Below, in pieces: positions 12,760-27,277 of a stretch of 34,263 nt of DNA. Position 1 is the first letter of the stretch; the number at the start of each line of letters is the position of its first letter. This DNA is from Rhodoferax sp. (GTDB lineage Bacteria; Pseudomonadota; Gammaproteobacteria; Burkholderiales; Burkholderiaceae_C): NCBI GenBank assembly GCA_020048795.1, contig JAIFMA010000155.1:1-34263 (forward strand), in the 5' to 3' direction. Position numbers and translations under genes: made by a program. The notes beneath the pieces were generated by a model. That model did not search any database. It had not been told where the DNA came from and worked only from the letters and a program-made list of their open reading frames with translations.

Positions 12760-12852
12760 CTAGGTGCTTGTGGGACTTATGGAACATCGGCTGCGAATCG
12801 ACCGCTGGGGCCGATTTTCGCTATCGATGGCATAAGTCCGACAGGCTCCTAG
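12760..12852. repeat. Long imperfect inverted repeat/hairpin element with CTAG ends
   Basis: ctaggtgcttgtgggacttatg (12760-12781) pairs with cataagtccgacaggctcctag (12831-12852), 19/22; nested catcg/cgatg and gcgaa/ttcgc pairs. Confidence 0.7.
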
Positions 12853-12924
12853 TGTGCTTGTTGGACCCCCAAATCTTACTTGATCAGGCCGGCTCAGCCA
12901 CGCGCAAGAACACCTCAATCCAAT

Positions 12925-13209
12925 TTATACACAGATGAAAACAAAAAATCTCTTTTGGAACTTTTCAGGGGCTGATGGACTTCGTTGTATTATTTTCTTT
13001 TCTGATTTTTAAGACAGTAGTAGTAATTAAGCTTTCAAAAAATTGTGGAAAAGTTATTTTTATTTTTTAAAATCAACATGTTATGAAATTTTTTTAACTG
13101 TTGATCAGTGTGCTTTCAAGAAGCCAACAAAAATGAACAAGTTGAAGATTTTTTAAAAACTGTGGATAACTGTCAGATTCAGGATAATTTATCCACAGTT
13201 TTATCCAGC
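12925..13209. other. AT-rich region with DnaA boxes (candidate oriC or DnaA-binding locus)
   Basis: TTATACACA 12925-12933(+), TTTTCCACA 13044-13052(-), TTATCCACA 13161-13169(-), TTATCCACA 13189-13197(+), near-box TTATCCAGC 13201-13209; A/T tracts 13053-13105. Confidence 0.6.
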
Positions 13210-13274
13210 TCTATTTGATTCATCTTTTAGCGAGGTTGTGGGTCAAAAGGCAAAAAAAAGCCTTAATGAATTCG

Positions 13275-14666
13275 CTATTTTTTACCCAGGCTTGCTTTGG
13301 CTTTCATGATCTCAGCCTTGACCTCTTCGAAATCAGGTGAACCTGGTGGTAACACGGTTAACACAGTTTCCCAGTGGTTGATCGCTTTGGCGTAATCGGC
13401 TGCTTTGTAAGCGGCTTGGCCTGCCATCATGAGCGCCATGGGATGCTTTGGATTGATGGTCAGTGCCTTGTTGATGAGCTGTTGTGGTTGGCCCTTGAAA
13501 TTACCGTTGGCACGGGTTGCCAGCAAGTCAGCGTATTGCGTCATCAGGTCGGCATCGCTGTCGAGCAACTGGCCGGTTTTGGCGTAGGCTACCACTGCAT
13601 CATCAAGCCGTCCCTGCACTTTGTAGGCCCGGGCCAGTCGTGCCCAACCAAGGACATCGCCAGGGTTTTGTTTCAGGCGTGCTGCCAGGCGGTCCACCAT
13701 CTGGTTGATCATTTCAGGGGTCATGCTGCCTGCTGCGCCCTGCGGCACTGGGGCTAACTTGCCGGTCTCGTTGGCTGCCTCAATGCGTTGCGCCGGGGCC
13801 GGGAGCAAGGCTTTAGGCGTTGGTGGCGCGATACCAGCCTTGACGCGTGCGTCAGCAATATCTGCCTCAATCTGCTGTGCATCCGGTGAACCCGGTGGTA
13901 GAACAGTCAACAACTTCTCCCATTGATTGATGGCCAGCTTGAAGTCAGAACGTCGATAAGCTGCAACGCCTGACATCATCAAGCCCATGGGATGCTGTGC
14001 ACTGATGCTTAAGGCCTGGTTGACCAACTCCAGTGGTTTGCCTTCCAGATTGCCTTGGGCCTGGACGGCGATGACATCGGCATAGTCCACCAGTAAATCA
14101 GGTTCGGTGTTTACCAGGGCTCCCGCTTTCTCGAAGGCGTGAATGGCTTCGTCAAATCGTCCCATCACCTTGTAGGAGCGAGCCAACATGACCCAGGCTT
14201 TAGGGTTGTCGGGATTGGCTTTGAGCCGTTCAGCCAGGGTGTCGATCATCTGTCTGATTTGCTGATCTTTGACATTGGCGGTTGTGACCGGGTCGATGGA
14301 GGCTGGTGTTCCCAACTGCATATACATACCAGCAGTCAGCATCGGCACACTCAAGCCAATGGCGGTGGCCGTGCGTCGTGCCGACCAAAAACCACGATTG
14401 ACCTGTTGAGTGGTGGGTGTCTCGAAGCTCTGGGTGTCATCAAGCAGGCGCAATTGCAGTTCATCGCGGGTGGTTTCAAAGTCCTGCTGGCTGATGACAC
14501 CTCGTGCCAGGTCGGTCTCCAAAGTCAGCAGTTGATCACGATGAATGGCAGCATTGAGGCGATTGCTGGAGACACCATGTCCTGTTTTGGAGCGTAGCAA
14601 GGGCCAAATCAGCCAAACCACCACCAACAGCGTCAACAGCACTGCAATACCAATAAAGAGCTTCAT
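13275..14666 (-). CDS. ccmI: Cytochrome c biogenesis TPR protein CcmI (CcmH C-terminal type), duplicated TPR unit
   Basis: Two N-terminal TM segments, TPR repeats, last gene of the ccm operon. Confidence 0.85.
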   Translation of the reverse strand: MKLFIGIAVLLTLLVVVWLIWPLLRSKTGHGVSSNRLNAAIHRDQLLTLETDLARGVISQQDFETTRDELQLRLLDDTQSFETPTTQQVNRGFWSARRTATAIGLSVPMLTAGMYMQLGTPASIDPVTTANVKDQQIRQMIDTLAERLKANPDNPKAWVMLARSYKVMGRFDEAIHAFEKAGALVNTEPDLLVDYADVIAVQAQGNLEGKPLELVNQALSISAQHPMGLMMSGVAAYRRSDFKLAINQWEKLLTVLPPGSPDAQQIEADIADARVKAGIAPPTPKALLPAPAQRIEAANETGKLAPVPQGAAGSMTPEMINQMVDRLAARLKQNPGDVLGWARLARAYKVQGRLDDAVVAYAKTGQLLDSDADLMTQYADLLATRANGNFKGQPQQLINKALTINPKHPMALMMAGQAAYKAADYAKAINHWETVLTVLPPGSPDFEEVKAEIMKAKASLGKK

Positions 14667-15130
14667 TTTTGGGAGTCAATGTCTTGAAGAAGGGTTTGGG
14701 CTTTGGCGCGCTGCTGGTCGTCGAGTGGCGGTAGGTCTGGTTCAAGCTGGTTGCGCCGTACCATGCTGATCAGTATCCACAGAGCACCCAGCAGCAATAT
14801 CAAGGGCCCGAACCATAACAGCCAGGTGGAAGGTTTGACGGGTGGGCGATACAGCACAAAGTCACCGTACCGACTAACCAGGAATTCCTTGATTTCTGCA
14901 TCAGTCTTGCCCGACTTGATCAAGGTGCGAACCTCACGCCGCAGATCCATGGCCAGGTCGGCACGTGAGCCTGCCAATGATTCGTTTTGGCAAACCAGGC
15001 AACGCAACTCTTCGGCAATGACGATCAGGCGTTGTTCAACCACTGGATCATCAGCCAGGGGTGTGGCTTCACTGGCATGCGCACCCATCGCGCATTGAAA
15101 TGCCAGAAACAGGGCTAGCCAATTTTTCAT
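14663..15130 (-). CDS. ccmH: Cytochrome c-type biogenesis protein CcmH (CcmL type)
   Basis: EELRCLVCQNESLAGSRADLAMDLRREV; LRCLVCQ heme-handling motif. Confidence 0.95.
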   Translation of the reverse strand: MKNWLALFLAFQCAMGAHASEATPLADDPVVEQRLIVIAEELRCLVCQNESLAGSRADLAMDLRREVRTLIKSGKTDAEIKEFLVSRYGDFVLYRPPVKPSTWLLWFGPLILLLGALWILISMVRRNQLEPDLPPLDDQQRAKAQTLLQDIDSQK

Positions 15131-15651
15131 TTTTGGAGCTCCCGTACCAAGGGCAGCAATTTGTCACGGATGGATTCTTCTGTAAAAGGACCAATTTGTT
15201 TGTAGCGGATGATCCCCATCTTGTCGATCAAGAAGCTCTCGGGCACCTTATAGACACCAAAATCAATGCCGATGCGGCCATCCCGGTCAGCAATGGACAC
15301 GTCATAGGGGTTGCCATAGCGGCTGAGCCATTTGAGACCATCAGCGTCTTTGTCCTTGTAATCGAGTCCGACGATGGGCAGCAGCTTGTTTTTAGACAAC
15401 TCAACCAGCAGGGGGTGTTCCTGGCGACAGGCGACACACCAGGAGGCCCAGGTGTTGAGCAACCAGACCTTGCCTAACATGTCATTGTTGGAAAATTGCA
15501 GGCCGGTGCCATCAAGCACCGGTGCGGTAAAGCTTGGTGCTGGTTTGCCGATCAGCGGAGAGGGAATTTCACTGGGGTCACGGGTCAACCCGATGGCCAG
15601 AAAAATGACCAGAATGATAAAAAGCAGCAGTGGAATCAGGGTTTTTTTCAT
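15127..15651 (-). CDS. ccmG: Thiol:disulfide interchange protein CcmG/DsbE
   Basis: Thioredoxin-like WASWCVACRQEHP, N-terminal TM anchor. Confidence 0.95.
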   Translation of the reverse strand: MKKTLIPLLLFIILVIFLAIGLTRDPSEIPSPLIGKPAPSFTAPVLDGTGLQFSNNDMLGKVWLLNTWASWCVACRQEHPLLVELSKNKLLPIVGLDYKDKDADGLKWLSRYGNPYDVSIADRDGRIGIDFGVYKVPESFLIDKMGIIRYKQIGPFTEESIRDKLLPLVRELQK

Positions 15652-17660
15652 GCTGGAATGGTTTGCGGTTTAGCCTTTGGCGGTTTGCCAGCGGCATCAA
15701 CCAGGGTGTTGCTGCTGCCATGCTTTGTGCTTTGTGCCAGGTTCTTGCGGTAACGCCTGTCCAGTGCTGCCATGCCGCCACCAAATGCCATGATCAGGCA
15801 GCCGACCCAGATCCAGGTCACAAACGGTTTGTGATAGACCCGCATGGCCCAGGCAGCCTTTGGGCCATCTTCGAGTTTTTCACCCAGCGAGACGTACACG
15901 TCCCGTGTCAATCCGCTGTCAATGGCCGCTTCAGTCATCGGCATGCTGGAGGAAAAATAGCTACGCTTTTCCGGATGCAGTGTTTTCAGTAGTTTGTCAC
16001 CCTGAAGCAATTCGACCGTGCCAACATCGGCCAGGTAGTTGGGGCCACGTCGCTCGCTGATACCTGTCAGACGGAAGGTATAACCACCCACCGAAACGGT
16101 GTCGCCAAAGGCCATGCGGACATCTTTTTCAGTCTCGTAGCCCTTGACCATGGTGATGCCAATGACACACACCGCAATACCAAGATGAGCCACATGCATG
16201 CCCCAGTAAGACAGTGGTGTAGTTCGCCCTGGTCCCATGTCCTTGACATGTCGGTAAATCTGAACCACTGAGGCCAGCATGATCCAGACTGACAGAGTCA
16301 GGCCCACAGCCACAATGGCTGACCACGGCCCAGCCAGCAGTGGCAAGCTGCAACCCAGCAGCACGGAAACAATGGCAATAGGACGCAGCTTTTTCACCAG
16401 TTCGGCCACACTGTCATTTTTCCAGCGGGCATAGGAGCCGATCACCATGAACAGCAGCACCGGCATCATGATCGGGGCAAACACGGCATTGAAGTAGGGC
16501 GGACCTACCGAGAGCTTGCCCAGATTCAAGGCATCTACAATCAGGGGGTACAAGGTGCCCAGCATGACACTGGCCGCTGCCGTGGTCAGCAAGACATTGT
16601 TGATCAGCAAGAAGGTTTCACGTGACACGAGAGCAAAGTTGCCACCGGCCCGCACTTTGCTGGCCCGTAGCGCAAACAAGATGAGTGAACCCCCCACCAC
16701 CACGGCCAGGAACAGCAGAATAAAAACGCCGCGTTTTGGGTCGGTGGCAAAAGCATGGACCGAGGTCAGAACACCCGAGCGCACCAAAAAGGTTCCCAAT
16801 AAACTCAATGAAAACGAGGTGATGGCCAGGATGATGGTCCAGTTTCTGAACAGGCCGCGTTTTTCGGTGACCGCCAGCGAGTGAATCAAGGCCGTGCTGA
16901 CCAGCCAGGGCAGGAACGAGGCGTTTTCGACCGGGTCCCAAAACCACCAGCCACCCCAGCCCAATTCGTAATAGGCCCACCACGAGCCCAGGGCGATGCC
17001 GACGGTCAGAAATATCCAGGCGGCAGTGGCCCAGGGGCGTGACCAGCGGGCCCAGGCCGCATCGAGTCGGCCATTGAGCAAGGCGGCAATGGCAAAGGCA
17101 AAGGGAATAGCCATGCCGACATAACCCATGTAAAGCAGCGGTGGGTGAAATACCAAACCTGGGTCTTGCAGCAGGGGATTGAGATCACGGCCGTCTTCAG
17201 GAATGTCGCTCAGACGCAGGAACGGGTTGGAGGTGATCAGCATGAACAGCAGAAAACCAACCGCCACCAGACCCAAAACCCCGAGCACGCGAGACACCAT
17301 GACATCGGGCAATTGACGGGAAAAGATCGACACAGCCATCATCCAGGTGCTGAGCATCATCAGCCAGAGCAGCAATGAGCCTTCATGGCCACCCCAGACC
17401 CCGGCGATGCGGTACAGGTCGGGCAATTTGGAATTGGAATGCTGGCTGACATACAGGACCGAAAAGTCATTGGTATAAAAGGCGTAGGTCAGGCAAGCAA
17501 AAGAAAACGCGGTCAATAGCCACATGGCCTGTGCGCCGGGTCGGGCAAAGGCCATCCAGTCAGCACGGTTTTGTTGTCCGCCGGCTGTGGCGATGATGCC
17601 CAGGCTCAAAGCCACCATCAGGGCAAGGATCAAGGCAAAGTGACCAAGTTCAGGGATCAT
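15648..17660 (-). CDS. ccmF: Heme lyase CcmF
   Basis: WGGHEGSLLLW; ELGWGGWWFWDPVENASFLPWL WWD signature. Confidence 0.97.
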   Translation of the reverse strand: MIPELGHFALILALMVALSLGIIATAGGQQNRADWMAFARPGAQAMWLLTAFSFACLTYAFYTNDFSVLYVSQHSNSKLPDLYRIAGVWGGHEGSLLLWLMMLSTWMMAVSIFSRQLPDVMVSRVLGVLGLVAVGFLLFMLITSNPFLRLSDIPEDGRDLNPLLQDPGLVFHPPLLYMGYVGMAIPFAFAIAALLNGRLDAAWARWSRPWATAAWIFLTVGIALGSWWAYYELGWGGWWFWDPVENASFLPWLVSTALIHSLAVTEKRGLFRNWTIILAITSFSLSLLGTFLVRSGVLTSVHAFATDPKRGVFILLFLAVVVGGSLILFALRASKVRAGGNFALVSRETFLLINNVLLTTAAASVMLGTLYPLIVDALNLGKLSVGPPYFNAVFAPIMMPVLLFMVIGSYARWKNDSVAELVKKLRPIAIVSVLLGCSLPLLAGPWSAIVAVGLTLSVWIMLASVVQIYRHVKDMGPGRTTPLSYWGMHVAHLGIAVCVIGITMVKGYETEKDVRMAFGDTVSVGGYTFRLTGISERRGPNYLADVGTVELLQGDKLLKTLHPEKRSYFSSSMPMTEAAIDSGLTRDVYVSLGEKLEDGPKAAWAMRVYHKPFVTWIWVGCLIMAFGGGMAALDRRYRKNLAQSTKHGSSNTLVDAAGKPPKAKPQTIPA

Positions 17661-17670
17661 GGAAAGGTCC

Positions 17671-18108
17671 TTATTTCAGCGTTTTGATGGTGTTCTGGGC
17701 TTGATCAACGGCGTGCTGGGCTTCAGGTGGCATGTAGTTTTCATCATGCTTGGCCAGCACTTCAGTGGCAGTGAAATGGCCCGTGGCATCGAGCTTGCCT
17801 TGTGCGACCACCCCTTTGCCTTCACGAAACAAGTCAGGCAGGATGCCGGTGTAAGCCACCTTGACATCCTGCGCGGTGTCGGTCACGACGAAGTTGACGG
17901 TCAGGTTGTCGCGCTTGACGCTACCCGTCTTGACCATGCCCCCGACCCGGAAGGTTCGGTTTTTTGGTGCTTCACCCGATGCAATCTGGCTTGGCGAAAA
18001 GAAAAACACCAGATTGCTCTCAAAGGCGTTCAGAACAAAATAGGTGGCAAGGGCAATGGCAGCCAGACCACCGCCAATCAAGGCAGCGCGTTTGTGACGA
18101 GGTTTCAT
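17671..18108 (-). CDS. ccmE: Heme chaperone CcmE
   Basis: [13 protein letters not shown]..., heme-binding [11 protein letters not shown]. Confidence 0.96.
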
Positions 18109-19712: not shown

Positions 19713-20344
19713 GGGGTCTTGAGCTCCAGCATTTGCGCTGGAATAGTGCCGACAGGCACGCGCTGGTGACTGGTCAGCACCGCCAAACCACCGCGACTCA
19801 GATGACCGGCTATCAAGTCTGAGAGCATCAGGATGCCGGCATCATCCATGGCCACATACGGTTCATCCAGCACCCACAAACGGGCCGGGCTCAGTGCCAG
19901 TCGGGACAAGGCCACACGCCGCTTTTGTCCTTGCGACAAGTGGCGCACCAATTGTTGCGAGCGCCCGTGCAGGCCAAAACGCGCCAGCACATCCCTGGTC
20001 TGGCTGGTGTCAGGGGCCATGCCGCCCAGTGCAGCGTTGAAAATCAGGTTTTCCCTGACGGTCATGGACTCTTGCAGGGCGTTCAGATGGCCCAGGTAAC
20101 ACAGGTCTTGCCGGTACGCCTCGCGCTGCTGATGAATCGGCAGCTTGTTCCACAGAATGTCGCCTGATTCAATCGATGCCAAGCCGCAAACCATGCGCAA
20201 CAAACTGGTCTTGCCAACGCCATTGGCACCTGTTACATACAACCATTGGCCTGCTTGTAGTGTGCAAGTGACATTGGAAAACAAGGGTCTGCCGCCCTTG
20301 ACACAGCCAAGATTGCAAAAAGTCAGGGACAGTGAGGTGTTCAA
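19709..20344 (-). CDS. ccmA: Heme exporter ATP-binding protein CcmA
   Basis: Walker A GANGVGKTSLL, signature LSQGQKRRVALSRL, Walker B LWVLDEPY. Confidence 0.95.
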   Translation of the reverse strand: MNTSLSLTFCNLGCVKGGRPLFSNVTCTLQAGQWLYVTGANGVGKTSLLRMVCGLASIESGDILWNKLPIHQQREAYRQDLCYLGHLNALQESMTVRENLIFNAALGGMAPDTSQTRDVLARFGLHGRSQQLVRHLSQGQKRRVALSRLALSPARLWVLDEPYVAMDDAGILMLSDLIAGHLSRGGLAVLTSHQRVPVGTIPAQMLELKTP

Positions 20345-23766: not shown

Positions 23767-25890
23767 ATGCTTTATCCCCAACATTTTGACGTGATCGTTG
23801 TCGGCGGCGGCCATGCCGGAACCGAGGCTGCGCTCGCGGCCGCGCGGATGGGTTGCAAGACCCTGTTGCTGACACACAACATCGAGACATTGGGTCAGAT
23901 GAGTTGCAACCCATCCATCGGGGGTATTGGCAAAGGGCATCTGGTGAAGGAAGTTGATGCGCTGGGCGGTGCCATGGCCGCTGCCACCGATGAAGGTGGC
24001 GTGCAATTTCGCATTCTCAACGCCAGCAAGGGCCCGGCAGTGCGCGCCACACGAGCTCAGGCTGACCGTATTTTGTACAAGGCAGCAATTCGGCGGCGGC
24101 TGGAAAACCAGCCCAATCTGTGGCTGTTTCAACAGGCGGTAGATGACTTGATGGTCAAAGGCGATCAGGTGGTGGGTGCGGTGACGCAGGTCGGTATCCG
24201 GTTTGGAGCCAGCACAGTGGTGCTCACAGCAGGCACTTTTTTGGACGGCAAAGTGCATGTTGGGCTGAACAATTACCCTGCCGGGCGGGCTGGTGATCCG
24301 CCAGCGGCAAGTTTGAGCACGCGGCTGAAAGAACTGAAGTTGCCACAGGCACGCCTGAAGACCGGCACCCCCCCGCGCATTGATGGGCGCTCGATTGACT
24401 TCAGCAAATGCCAGGAGCAGGCCGGTGACGGCATGGCAAACCAAGGCGCAACTGTTACACCCGGCGGTGCGTCTTGTGGCCCGGGTGTGCCGGTGTTCAG
24501 CTTTTTGGGTCGCCCCGAACAGCACCCGAAGCAGATGTCGTGCTGGATCACCCACACCAACGAACGCACGCATGACATCATCCGCAGCGGCTTTGACCGC
24601 AGCCCGATGTTCACCGGCAAGATTGAAGGCATCGGGCCGCGGTATTGCCCCAGTGTTGAAGACAAGATCAACCGTTTTGCTGACAAGGACAGCCACCAGA
24701 TCTTCCTGGAGCCTGAAGGTCTGACGACGCACGAGTATTACCCCAATGGCATCAGTACCAGCCTGCCGTTTGATATTCAGTATGCGCTGGTGCGCAGCAT
24801 GGCCGGGCTGGAAAACGCCCACTTGCTGCGGCCAGGTTATGCGATTGAATATGACTACTTTGACCCGCAGCAACTCCGCAGCACCTTTGAAACCCGGGCC
24901 ATTTCTGGCCTGTATTTTGCCGGGCAGATCAACGGCACCACCGGTTATGAAGAGGCAGCGGCGCAGGGTTTGTTTGCCGGTATCAACGCCGCGTTGCAGG
25001 TGCGTGCCATGGGTGGTGGCGATGGCGGGCTGAGTGCCGCCGGCCGTATTGACTTCAGTGCCGATGTCTGGCTGCCCGCGCGCGACGAGGCTTACCTTGG
25101 GGTGATGGTGGACGACCTGATCACCAAGGGTGTCACCGAACCCTATCGCATGTTTACCAGTCGTGCCGAGTTCCGGCTGCAATTGCGTGAAGACAATGCC
25201 GACGCCCGTTTGACAGAAACGGGCCGCAAGCTGGGCTTGGTGGACGATGTGCGCTGGGATGCCTTTTGTCGCAAGCGTGATGCTGTTTCACGTGAAACAG
25301 AGCGCCTGCGTTCGATCTGGATCAGCCCGAAAAATCTTGCAGCAGCCGAGTCGGAGAGGGTGCTGGGCAAGGCTATCGAGCATGAATACAGCCTGGCTGA
25401 TTTGCTGCGGCGCCCGGATGTCACCTATGCGGCATTGATGTCGCTGGCCGGCGGCAGGTTTGCCACAGCCGAACTGCCAGTGTTTGTTTCACGTGAAACA
25501 CTGGGCTTGTCGGTCGATAGTGCGCTGGCGCTTTCGGTGATTGAGCAGGTGGAAATTTCGGCCAAGTATGCCGGCTATATTGACCGACAAAAGGTCGATG
25601 TGGGTAGGGCAGCACATTTTGAGAATCTGAAGCTACCGCAAGACCTGGACTACATGCAGGTCGCGGCATTGAGCATCGAGGCACGCCAAAAGCTCAACCG
25701 TCACAAGCCTGAAACCCTGGGCCATGCGTCGCGCATTTCTGGCATCACGCCAGCCACGATTTCCTTGCTGATGATTCACCTGAAAAAGACCAAGTTCAAG
25801 GGATTTGTGGTTGATGGCCGGCCTGGTTTATTGGCTGACGTGACGACCGAGCCACCTTCGGGCAGTAACCTCGTGACGGGCATCTGCTGA
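23767..25890 (+). CDS. mnmG: tRNA uridine-5-carboxymethylaminomethyl modification enzyme MnmG (GidA)
   Basis: [66 protein letters not shown]-like C-terminus. Confidence 0.97.
25284..25299. promoter_or_regulatory. parS: parS partition site (perfect), inside mnmG
   Basis: tgtttcacgtgaaaca, 16/16 match to TGTTTCACGTGAAACA. Confidence 0.92.
25485..25500. promoter_or_regulatory. parS: parS partition site (perfect), inside mnmG
   Basis: tgtttcacgtgaaaca, 16/16. Confidence 0.92.
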
Positions 25891-26579
25891 TGTCTGGGCT
25901 GGAACATGGTTTGCAACAGGGCCTGGTTGAACTTGGTCTGAGCTTGAGTGCCGGGCAAGTCGCCCAGTTGCTGGACTACCTGGCCTTGATCCGGAAGTGG
26001 ACCCAGGTCTATAACCTGACTGCCGTGCGTGACCCGACAGAGATCTTGTCGCACCACCTGCTCGATAGTCTGGCGGTGGTCAAACCCTTGCAGCAGCAGC
26101 TTGTTGGTTCCGGGGTCGGGCAGGGTCTGGCTGCAGCATTCGGCCATGCGCCGGCCAACCGTTTGCTTGATGTGGGTTCAGGTGCCGGTTTGCCGGGTGT
26201 GGTGATCGCGATCTGCTGTCCCTGGATCGAGGTGCACTGTGTCGATACCGTTGGCAAAAAAGCAGCGTTCATTCAGCAGGTGGCGCTGGCCCTGAAACTG
26301 CCTAAGCTGCGTGGCATCCACGCGCGGGTGGAGCGTCTGACCGACAAGTACCAGGTGGTCAGCGCGCGGGCCTTTGCTTCGTTGCCTGATTTCACCACCT
26401 GGTCGCTTGCGGCGCTGGCTGAAGATGGTGTCTGGATGGCCATGAAGGGCAAACATCCCGCGGCTGAAATCGCAGCATTGCCACGGGATGTCGAGGTGTT
26501 TCACGTGGAACCACTGAAGGTGCCGGGGCTGGCGGCAGAGCGTTGTATCGTGTGGATGCGTAAGTGGCCCAAGCCGTAA
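25890..26579 (+). CDS. rsmG: 16S rRNA (guanine527-N7)-methyltransferase RsmG (GidB)
   Basis: KWTQVYNLTAVRDPTEILSHHLLDSLAVV, LLDVGSGAGLPGVVIAI. Confidence 0.96.
   Translation: MSGLEHGLQQGLVELGLSLSAGQVAQLLDYLALIRKWTQVYNLTAVRDPTEILSHHLLDSLAVVKPLQQQLVGSGVGQGLAAAFGHAPANRLLDVGSGAGLPGVVIAICCPWIEVHCVDTVGKKAAFIQQVALALKLPKLRGIHARVERLTDKYQVVSARAFASLPDFTTWSLAALAEDGVWMAMKGKHPAAEIAALPRDVEVFHVEPLKVPGLAAERCIVWMRKWPKP
26497..26512. promoter_or_regulatory. Degenerate parS-like site, inside rsmG
   Basis: tgtttcacgtggaacc, 14/16 match to parS. Confidence 0.5.
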
Positions 26580-26636
26580 CGTAAACTCTGCGCCTCACCC
26601 GACATTGGTTTTGGGCCCCTTTTCAGAAAGATCTCC

Positions 26637-27251
26637 ATGCTCGGCATTACCGACTACGGCACATTTATTGTCACGGTCATCATTTTCCTGGCCATACCCG
26701 GCCCGGGCAATTTGGCCCTGATCACGTCCACCAGCAAGGGCGGCATACGGGGTGGCATCGCCGCCACTTTCGGGGTGATCCTGGGTGACCAGGTCTTGAT
26801 GTGGTCAGCAGTGGCCGGTGTGGCAGCTTTGCTCACCGCTTATCCGGATGCCTTTCATGCGGTGCAGTGGATTGGCGCGGCCTATTTAGCCTGGTTGGGG
26901 GCGCAGATGTTGCTGGCCAAACCCGGTGCCGCGCCCGTGCTCAACATCAAGCCGCACCATTTCTTGAAGCAGGCACTGATGATTACCTTGCTCAACCCCA
27001 AGGCGATCTTGTTTTACATGGCTTTTTTCCCTCTGTTTGTTGACCCGGCTCGCCAGCAGGGCTTGATCACTTATGGCTTTATGGCCACAACCATTGCGGT
27101 GCTGACCTTTCTGTACGGTCTGATTGCGGTGTTGTTGACCCACTTTTTGGCGGAGCGCGTGCGGGCCAATCCGATGATTACCCGTGTGCTTGAAAAAGTC
27201 GCCGGCTTGTTCCTGGTCGGCTTTGGTGTCAAGCTGGCACTGTCACGCTGA
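26637..27251 (+). CDS. LysE/RhtB-family amino acid exporter
   Basis: IPGPGNLALITSTSKGGIRGGIAATFGVILGD, LLNPKAILFYMAFFPLFV. Confidence 0.92.
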   Translation: MLGITDYGTFIVTVIIFLAIPGPGNLALITSTSKGGIRGGIAATFGVILGDQVLMWSAVAGVAALLTAYPDAFHAVQWIGAAYLAWLGAQMLLAKPGAAPVLNIKPHHFLKQALMITLLNPKAILFYMAFFPLFVDPARQQGLITYGFMATTIAVLTFLYGLIAVLLTHFLAERVRANPMITRVLEKVAGLFLVGFGVKLALSR

Positions 27252-27261
27252 TTTTTGTGTT

Positions 27262-27277
27262 TGTTTCACGTGAAACA
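27262..27277. promoter_or_regulatory. parS: parS partition site (perfect), intergenic upstream of parA
   Basis: tgtttcacgtgaaaca, 16/16, 42 bp before parA ATG. Confidence 0.93.

Follow-up and report, generated by a model that had tools for sequence, protein, structure and literature searches.

The locus between minC and ccmI in Rhodoferax sp. raises the question of whether a chromosomal replication origin (oriC) can lie there, away from dnaA, or whether its DnaA boxes serve another end. The window analyzed (34,263 nucleotides) is the entire contig C213 of a Rhodoferax MAG of 2.66 Mb, with 258 contigs and a completeness of 72%. It encodes MinC, MinD, a CcmI-like TPR protein, CcmF, MnmG, RsmG, ParA and ParB. 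A preliminary description had named the flanking genes correctly, and had placed a parS cluster 12–14 kb from the gap with mnmG, rsmG and parAB near it; three perfect parS sites were indeed found at this distance. It had also noted that dnaA, dnaN and rpmH are absent from the window; the assembly has these three genes on another contig, C33, where a single full-length dnaA is found in the order rpmH-dnaA-dnaN-gyrB. The gap had been described as AT-rich and ~550 bp long. The AT-richness was borne out (GC 0.370 vs 0.573 window-wide, with 323 of the 400 lowest-GC 100-mers of the window beginning inside the gap), but the length is 487 bp. A search against Rfam gave no match within the gap.

The features of the gap are listed in Table 1. 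The DnaA boxes reported earlier are present as four TTWTNCACA sites, which are the only ones in the whole window, and the 14-bp inverted repeat (13156–13169 and 13189–13202) is an exact match with arms 19 nt apart. The earlier anatomy was sound for the boxes, but overlooked a trio-like repeat, an IHF site, and the fixed spacing of these elements. The repeat at 13015–13026 contains four 3'-GAT-5' trios running away from the neighboring DnaA box, in keeping with the basal unwinding system, for which three or more NAN trios directed away from a DnaA box are required. The IHF consensus sits between the R1-like box and the remaining boxes, and the T-richness of 12979–13014 is conserved in relatives. 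In 5000 dinucleotide shuffles of the gap, the mean number of TTWTNCACA sites was 0.09, no shuffle reached the observed four, and none contained a facing pair of perfect boxes.

Table 1. Features of the minC/ccmI gap and the parS cluster (window coordinates)
Feature	Position	Strand	Remarks
minC/ccmI intergenic region holding the proposed origin	12788..13274		487 bp, 37% GC
Outer DnaA box TTATACACA	12925..12933	+	minC side of unwinding region; TTATGCACA there in many relatives
Probable DNA unwinding element	12979..13014		T-rich, 22% GC; putative function
Core of the proposed origin, conserved	13012..13208	+	Leave-one-out profile (window withheld): 93 bits, E 1.7e-27
DnaA-trio-like repeat CAGTAGTAGTAA, consensus TAGTAGTAGTAG	13015..13026	+	Putative function, after PMC8287927
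DnaA box TTTTCCACA, R1-like, beside trios	13044..13052	-	Relatives mainly TTATCCACA, TTATCCACG or TTGTCCACA
IHF consensus WATCAANNNNTTR (AATCAACATGTTA)	13071..13083	+	Single match in window; predicted binding
Weak DnaA box	13099..13107	-	2 mismatches; within conserved TGTG block
Perfect DnaA box TTATCCACA	13161..13169	-	Left arm of inverted pair (arm 13156-13169)
Perfect DnaA box TTATCCACA	13189..13197	+	Right arm of inverted pair (arm 13189-13202)
Weak DnaA box TTATCCAGC	13201..13209	+	2 mismatches
parS cluster	25284..27277		Perfect TGTTTCACGTGAAACA at 25284, 25485, 27262; adjoins mnmG-rsmG-parAB

Outside this array, the sequence CAAATCTTACTTGAT (window 12870–12884, ~83 bp upstream of minC) is almost invariant, and was found only with minC adjacent. 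It was considered as an origin component and dropped, since it is present solely beside minC, which it probably serves as a promoter or leader element.

To investigate the conservation of the array, relatives were collected by a MinC scan, which yielded 80 loci with names mostly of Rhodoferax, Comamonadaceae or Burkholderiales; the assignment of the genus to Rhodoferax follows these names. A module of ~200 bp is present upstream of minC in 73 of these loci (window included), and contains, in order, an AT-rich stretch, TAGTAGTAG trios, a DnaA box, an IHF site, and an inverted box pair 19 bp apart. The facing box pair holds a 28-bp register in 73/80 upstream regions (window included), and a further reverse box lies ~118 bp from it, towards minC, in 73/80. 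At least three boxes were found in 46 of 79 upstream regions, compared with none of 1658 control blocks (700 bp, same loci). In the alignment of relatives, TAGTAGTAGTAGATAAG is followed by the reverse box, the IHF consensus, the TGTG block, and the pair. GTAGTA occupies the trio position in 71/74 loci, and TAGTAGTAG is almost restricted to the module position across the minC loci. The IHF consensus is perfect and at an identical offset in 46/74 loci, against a background of 79 matches in total on both strands of minC loci (1.3 Mb). A direct two-box pattern gave no useful signal among the relatives, because the actual pair faces inward. The neighbor of the module is ccmI in 29 of the 73 module-bearing loci and another gene in 44; with neighbors this varied, what is conserved is the module itself and not a particular pair of genes. 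Six minC loci (L161, L174, L178, L179, L204, L224) were without an upstream box array, and in L204 minC and minD are separated by ~2 kb.

A profile of the module was trained on 47 rows, the window among them, and a leave-one-out version was built without the window. The leave-one-out profile gave no match in the reversed or shuffled window, nor in the dnaA contig of the same assembly or 30 other Rhodoferax dnaA loci. The window copy is the sole profile match in its own assembly, in which, at 72% completeness and 258 contigs, a second copy is possible and a genome-wide skew cannot be drawn. In searches with stricter filters, for which a miss is not proof of absence, matches were obtained in 38/41 genomes of the genus (23/23 of good quality), in 195/201 genomes and 114/115 genera of the family, and, more weakly, in 51/150 sampled genomes of the order. 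Among the 30 best family loci, 10 have the module between dnaA and dnaN. When the modules of these loci, which are from other genera of the family, were aligned with the window, the trios, the box, the core of the IHF site and the box pair all corresponded. The dnaA-dnaN gap is the textbook position of oriC, and this homology is the strongest argument that the module would function as an origin.

The classical adjacency to dnaA was not found in the genome of the window: a profile search of the dnaA flanks on C33 detected no module, and the gap upstream of dnaA contains one exact and one near DnaA box. In the compared genomes of the genus with dnaA and the module on one contig, the two are 10–210 kb apart, with the exception of the divergent G062. 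In the closed genome OS-4, dnaA is at 198 and the module at 59,620; OS-4 and Rhodoferax antarcticus are cultured relatives whose single module lies apart from dnaA.

GC skew, proposed earlier as a check, was informative in the complete genome G036. In a 400-kb stretch, the cumulative G-C minimum lies at 3,191,059, which is 15–20 kb from two module copies (3,171,192 and 3,176,016) and 134 kb from dnaA (3,325,470), and coarse samples around the chromosome are consistent with an origin near this minimum. Three other genomes do not discriminate: G032 and G245 have their skew turn somewhere in the interval from dnaA to the module, and G010 has it beside dnaA, where a second module copy is located. 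The closed record of G062, one contig of 2.99 Mb, starts at dnaA, but its skew turn falls at ~1.9–2.5 Mb, roughly 0.5–1 Mb away, and thus the origin of this genome is distant from dnaA; a weak module match is present at 2.006 Mb.

Skew was also compared on the two sides of the module. At loci without ccm genes beside the module, the sign flips at the module, with the right side higher in 27/27 (mean −0.021 left and +0.053 right). The 29 ccm-type loci, which share the arrangement of the window, showed no switch within 9 kb, with the right side higher in 13/23. The ccm genes running towards the module may mask a local switch. The cumulative skew of the window itself reaches its minimum at 20,244 and falls almost as low around 13,000. 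The ccm genes of the window (13275–18108) point at the proposed origin, and are thus head-on to the fork, which is unusual this near an origin.

The box cluster, fixed spacing, conservation, dnaA-dnaN homology, and skew turn of G036, together with the proximity of parS, parAB and mnmG-rsmG, indicate that the minC/ccmI gap is very probably the chromosomal oriC of this Rhodoferax species. The preliminary description had considered an oriC separated from dnaA, and the conserved module, the homology to dnaA-dnaN modules and the G036 skew turn strongly support this reading. As a kind, the locus would be an ordinary oriC, and what is new is the address of the module and its apparent mobility (minC, gst/copA, dnaA-dnaN, two local copies). 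In the open literature, we found no paper on a Rhodoferax or minC-linked origin; subscription journals and DoriC lay outside this search, and an automatic prediction for some Rhodoferax may exist.

The anatomy suggests how such an origin would work. DnaA would bind the box at 13044–13052 and the inverted pair (13161–13197), and IHF would bend the DNA at 13071–13083, joining the two box groups. In E. coli, IHF bending between left and right boxes is helpful (PMC10380432). A DnaA filament could then extend from the 13044 box across the GAT trios at 13015–13026 and open the T-rich stretch 12979–13014, where the helicase would be loaded and from where two forks would depart. In other bacteria, a DnaA box beside GAT trios drives opening (PMC8287927). 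ParAB, acting at parS 12–14 kb away, would separate the newly copied origins.

The proposed origin resembles E. coli oriC in having, in this order, an unwinding region, a reverse box, an IHF consensus, and further boxes, the outermost of which faces the other way (PMC10380432), and in lying away from dnaA. It differs in having the trio repeat TAGTAGTAG in place of three 13-mers, in its tight facing box pair with 19 bp between, and in adjoining minC instead of mnmG/mioC. With the basal unwinding system (BUS) of Bacillus subtilis and other bacteria, it shares GAT trios on the expected strand and in the expected direction from the box (PMC8287927). The differences are the IHF site and the spacer between box and trios, which is 17 bp in the window and ~18 bp in the consensus of relatives, whereas the published rule is 0–16 bp (PMC8287927). 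The trio region may nevertheless resemble the BUS in its working, the window missing the search cut-off by one base.

Two other cases resemble the proposed origin in their position. In chromosome 1 of Cupriavidus metallidurans CH34, the skew turn is ~90 kb from dnaA, beside a 213-nt segment containing three perfect DnaA boxes, and this is the predicted origin (PMC2864759). CH34 belongs to the same GTDB-level family or order; the likeness is drawn from the published description, in which a minC context is not stated. The beta-proteobacterial Ralstonia pickettii 12D has two predicted oriC ~290 kb apart on one chromosome, beside hemE and dnaA (PMC4403523), and likewise combines an origin at dnaA with one elsewhere, but its two origins are not shown as copies of one module.

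In E. coli, datA contains DnaA boxes and an IHF site without an unwinding region, and is a modulator and not an origin. A comparable reading of the minC/ccmI gap is a datA- or DARS-like site that titrates or inactivates DnaA while the origin remains at dnaA; a datA-like titration or regulatory site had been offered as the alternative to oriC. Boxes plus an IHF site describe the module equally well, the region upstream of dnaA in the same assembly has its one exact and one near box, and some relatives have two module copies. However, the module also contains the trio repeat and the T-rich unwinding region, is near-universal in the family, and fills the dnaA-dnaN gap elsewhere. The upstream region of dnaA is without a module in the genome of the window and in 30 other Rhodoferax loci, no other module was detected in the assembly (72% complete), and the skew turn of G036 lies 134 kb from dnaA. 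We therefore consider a titration site very unlikely.

If the gap were a control region for minC (or ccmI), with DnaA as the transcription factor, this would account for an array immediately upstream of minC and for the block at 12870–12884 being confined to loci with minC adjacent, and a coupling of division to replication is plausible. The architecture is kept, however, without minC nearby, at the gst/copA and dnaA-dnaN loci, and a promoter needs neither a trio repeat nor an unwinding region; this explanation is highly improbable, and DnaA may regulate minC in addition to the function of the gap as an origin. We give just as little credence to a chance AT-rich gap, or a remnant of an old or integrated-plasmid origin now out of use. 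The genome of the window is a draft, and since several relatives have second copies close by, decaying copies must exist, but the window copy has perfect boxes, scores 93 bits with the leave-one-out profile, and is the only match in the assembly, and no plasmid replication gene was found among the window ORFs read.

The occurrence of the module was examined further in genomes with other gene contexts. In a set of Rhodoferax genomes, most of them without a MinC match, the module is flanked on one side by a gene for gst or a GMC-type oxidoreductase and on the other by one for a copper-type P-ATPase (copA); the oxidoreductase and P-ATPase names are our reading of the sequences, and gst is a match to a window gene. 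No MinC match was found in nine genomes of the same genus that are at least 96% complete (G001, G007, G012, G015, G017, G028, G030, G034, G063); among those of the nine that were inspected, the module tends to adjoin genes of gst/copA type. By a hand count of the table, roughly one in three family genomes gave two or more profile matches. Where a locus or genome contains two complete modules, their spacing is 0.4–22 kb. The two copies are 4.8 kb apart in G036, 22 kb in G032 and 0.6 kb in G004, and lie on two contigs in G014; in G010, where 15 kb separates them, the first lies immediately upstream of dnaA and the second upstream of minC. Tandem module pairs are present in L150, L175, L184, L216 (Rhodoferax sp. 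U11-2br), and L218.

The varied contexts and second copies suggest that the module may move by way of duplication. On balance, we lean towards the origin of the family being a self-contained module of ~200 bp that changes its address through a duplicated stage, in which a copy arises 0.3–50 kb away, both persist for a time, and one of them later disappears. The position beside minC would be one such address, with dnaA-dnaN, rpmH-dnaA, gst/copA, and more as others. A genus whose members are common in fresh water and groundwater would thereby gain a defined origin that can be tested, and with the profile the position of the origin could be read from almost all genomes of the family. Numbering or orienting genomes from dnaA would then misplace the start, by 50–150 kb in some species. 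The movement of the origin away from dnaA also becomes open to comparative study, including in two-copy strains. Over 80–290 kb of contig C3 in G032, the cumulative skew stays flat from dnaA (93.5 kb) to the modules (283 and 305.5 kb), which is what a recent change in the replication direction of this segment would be expected to produce.
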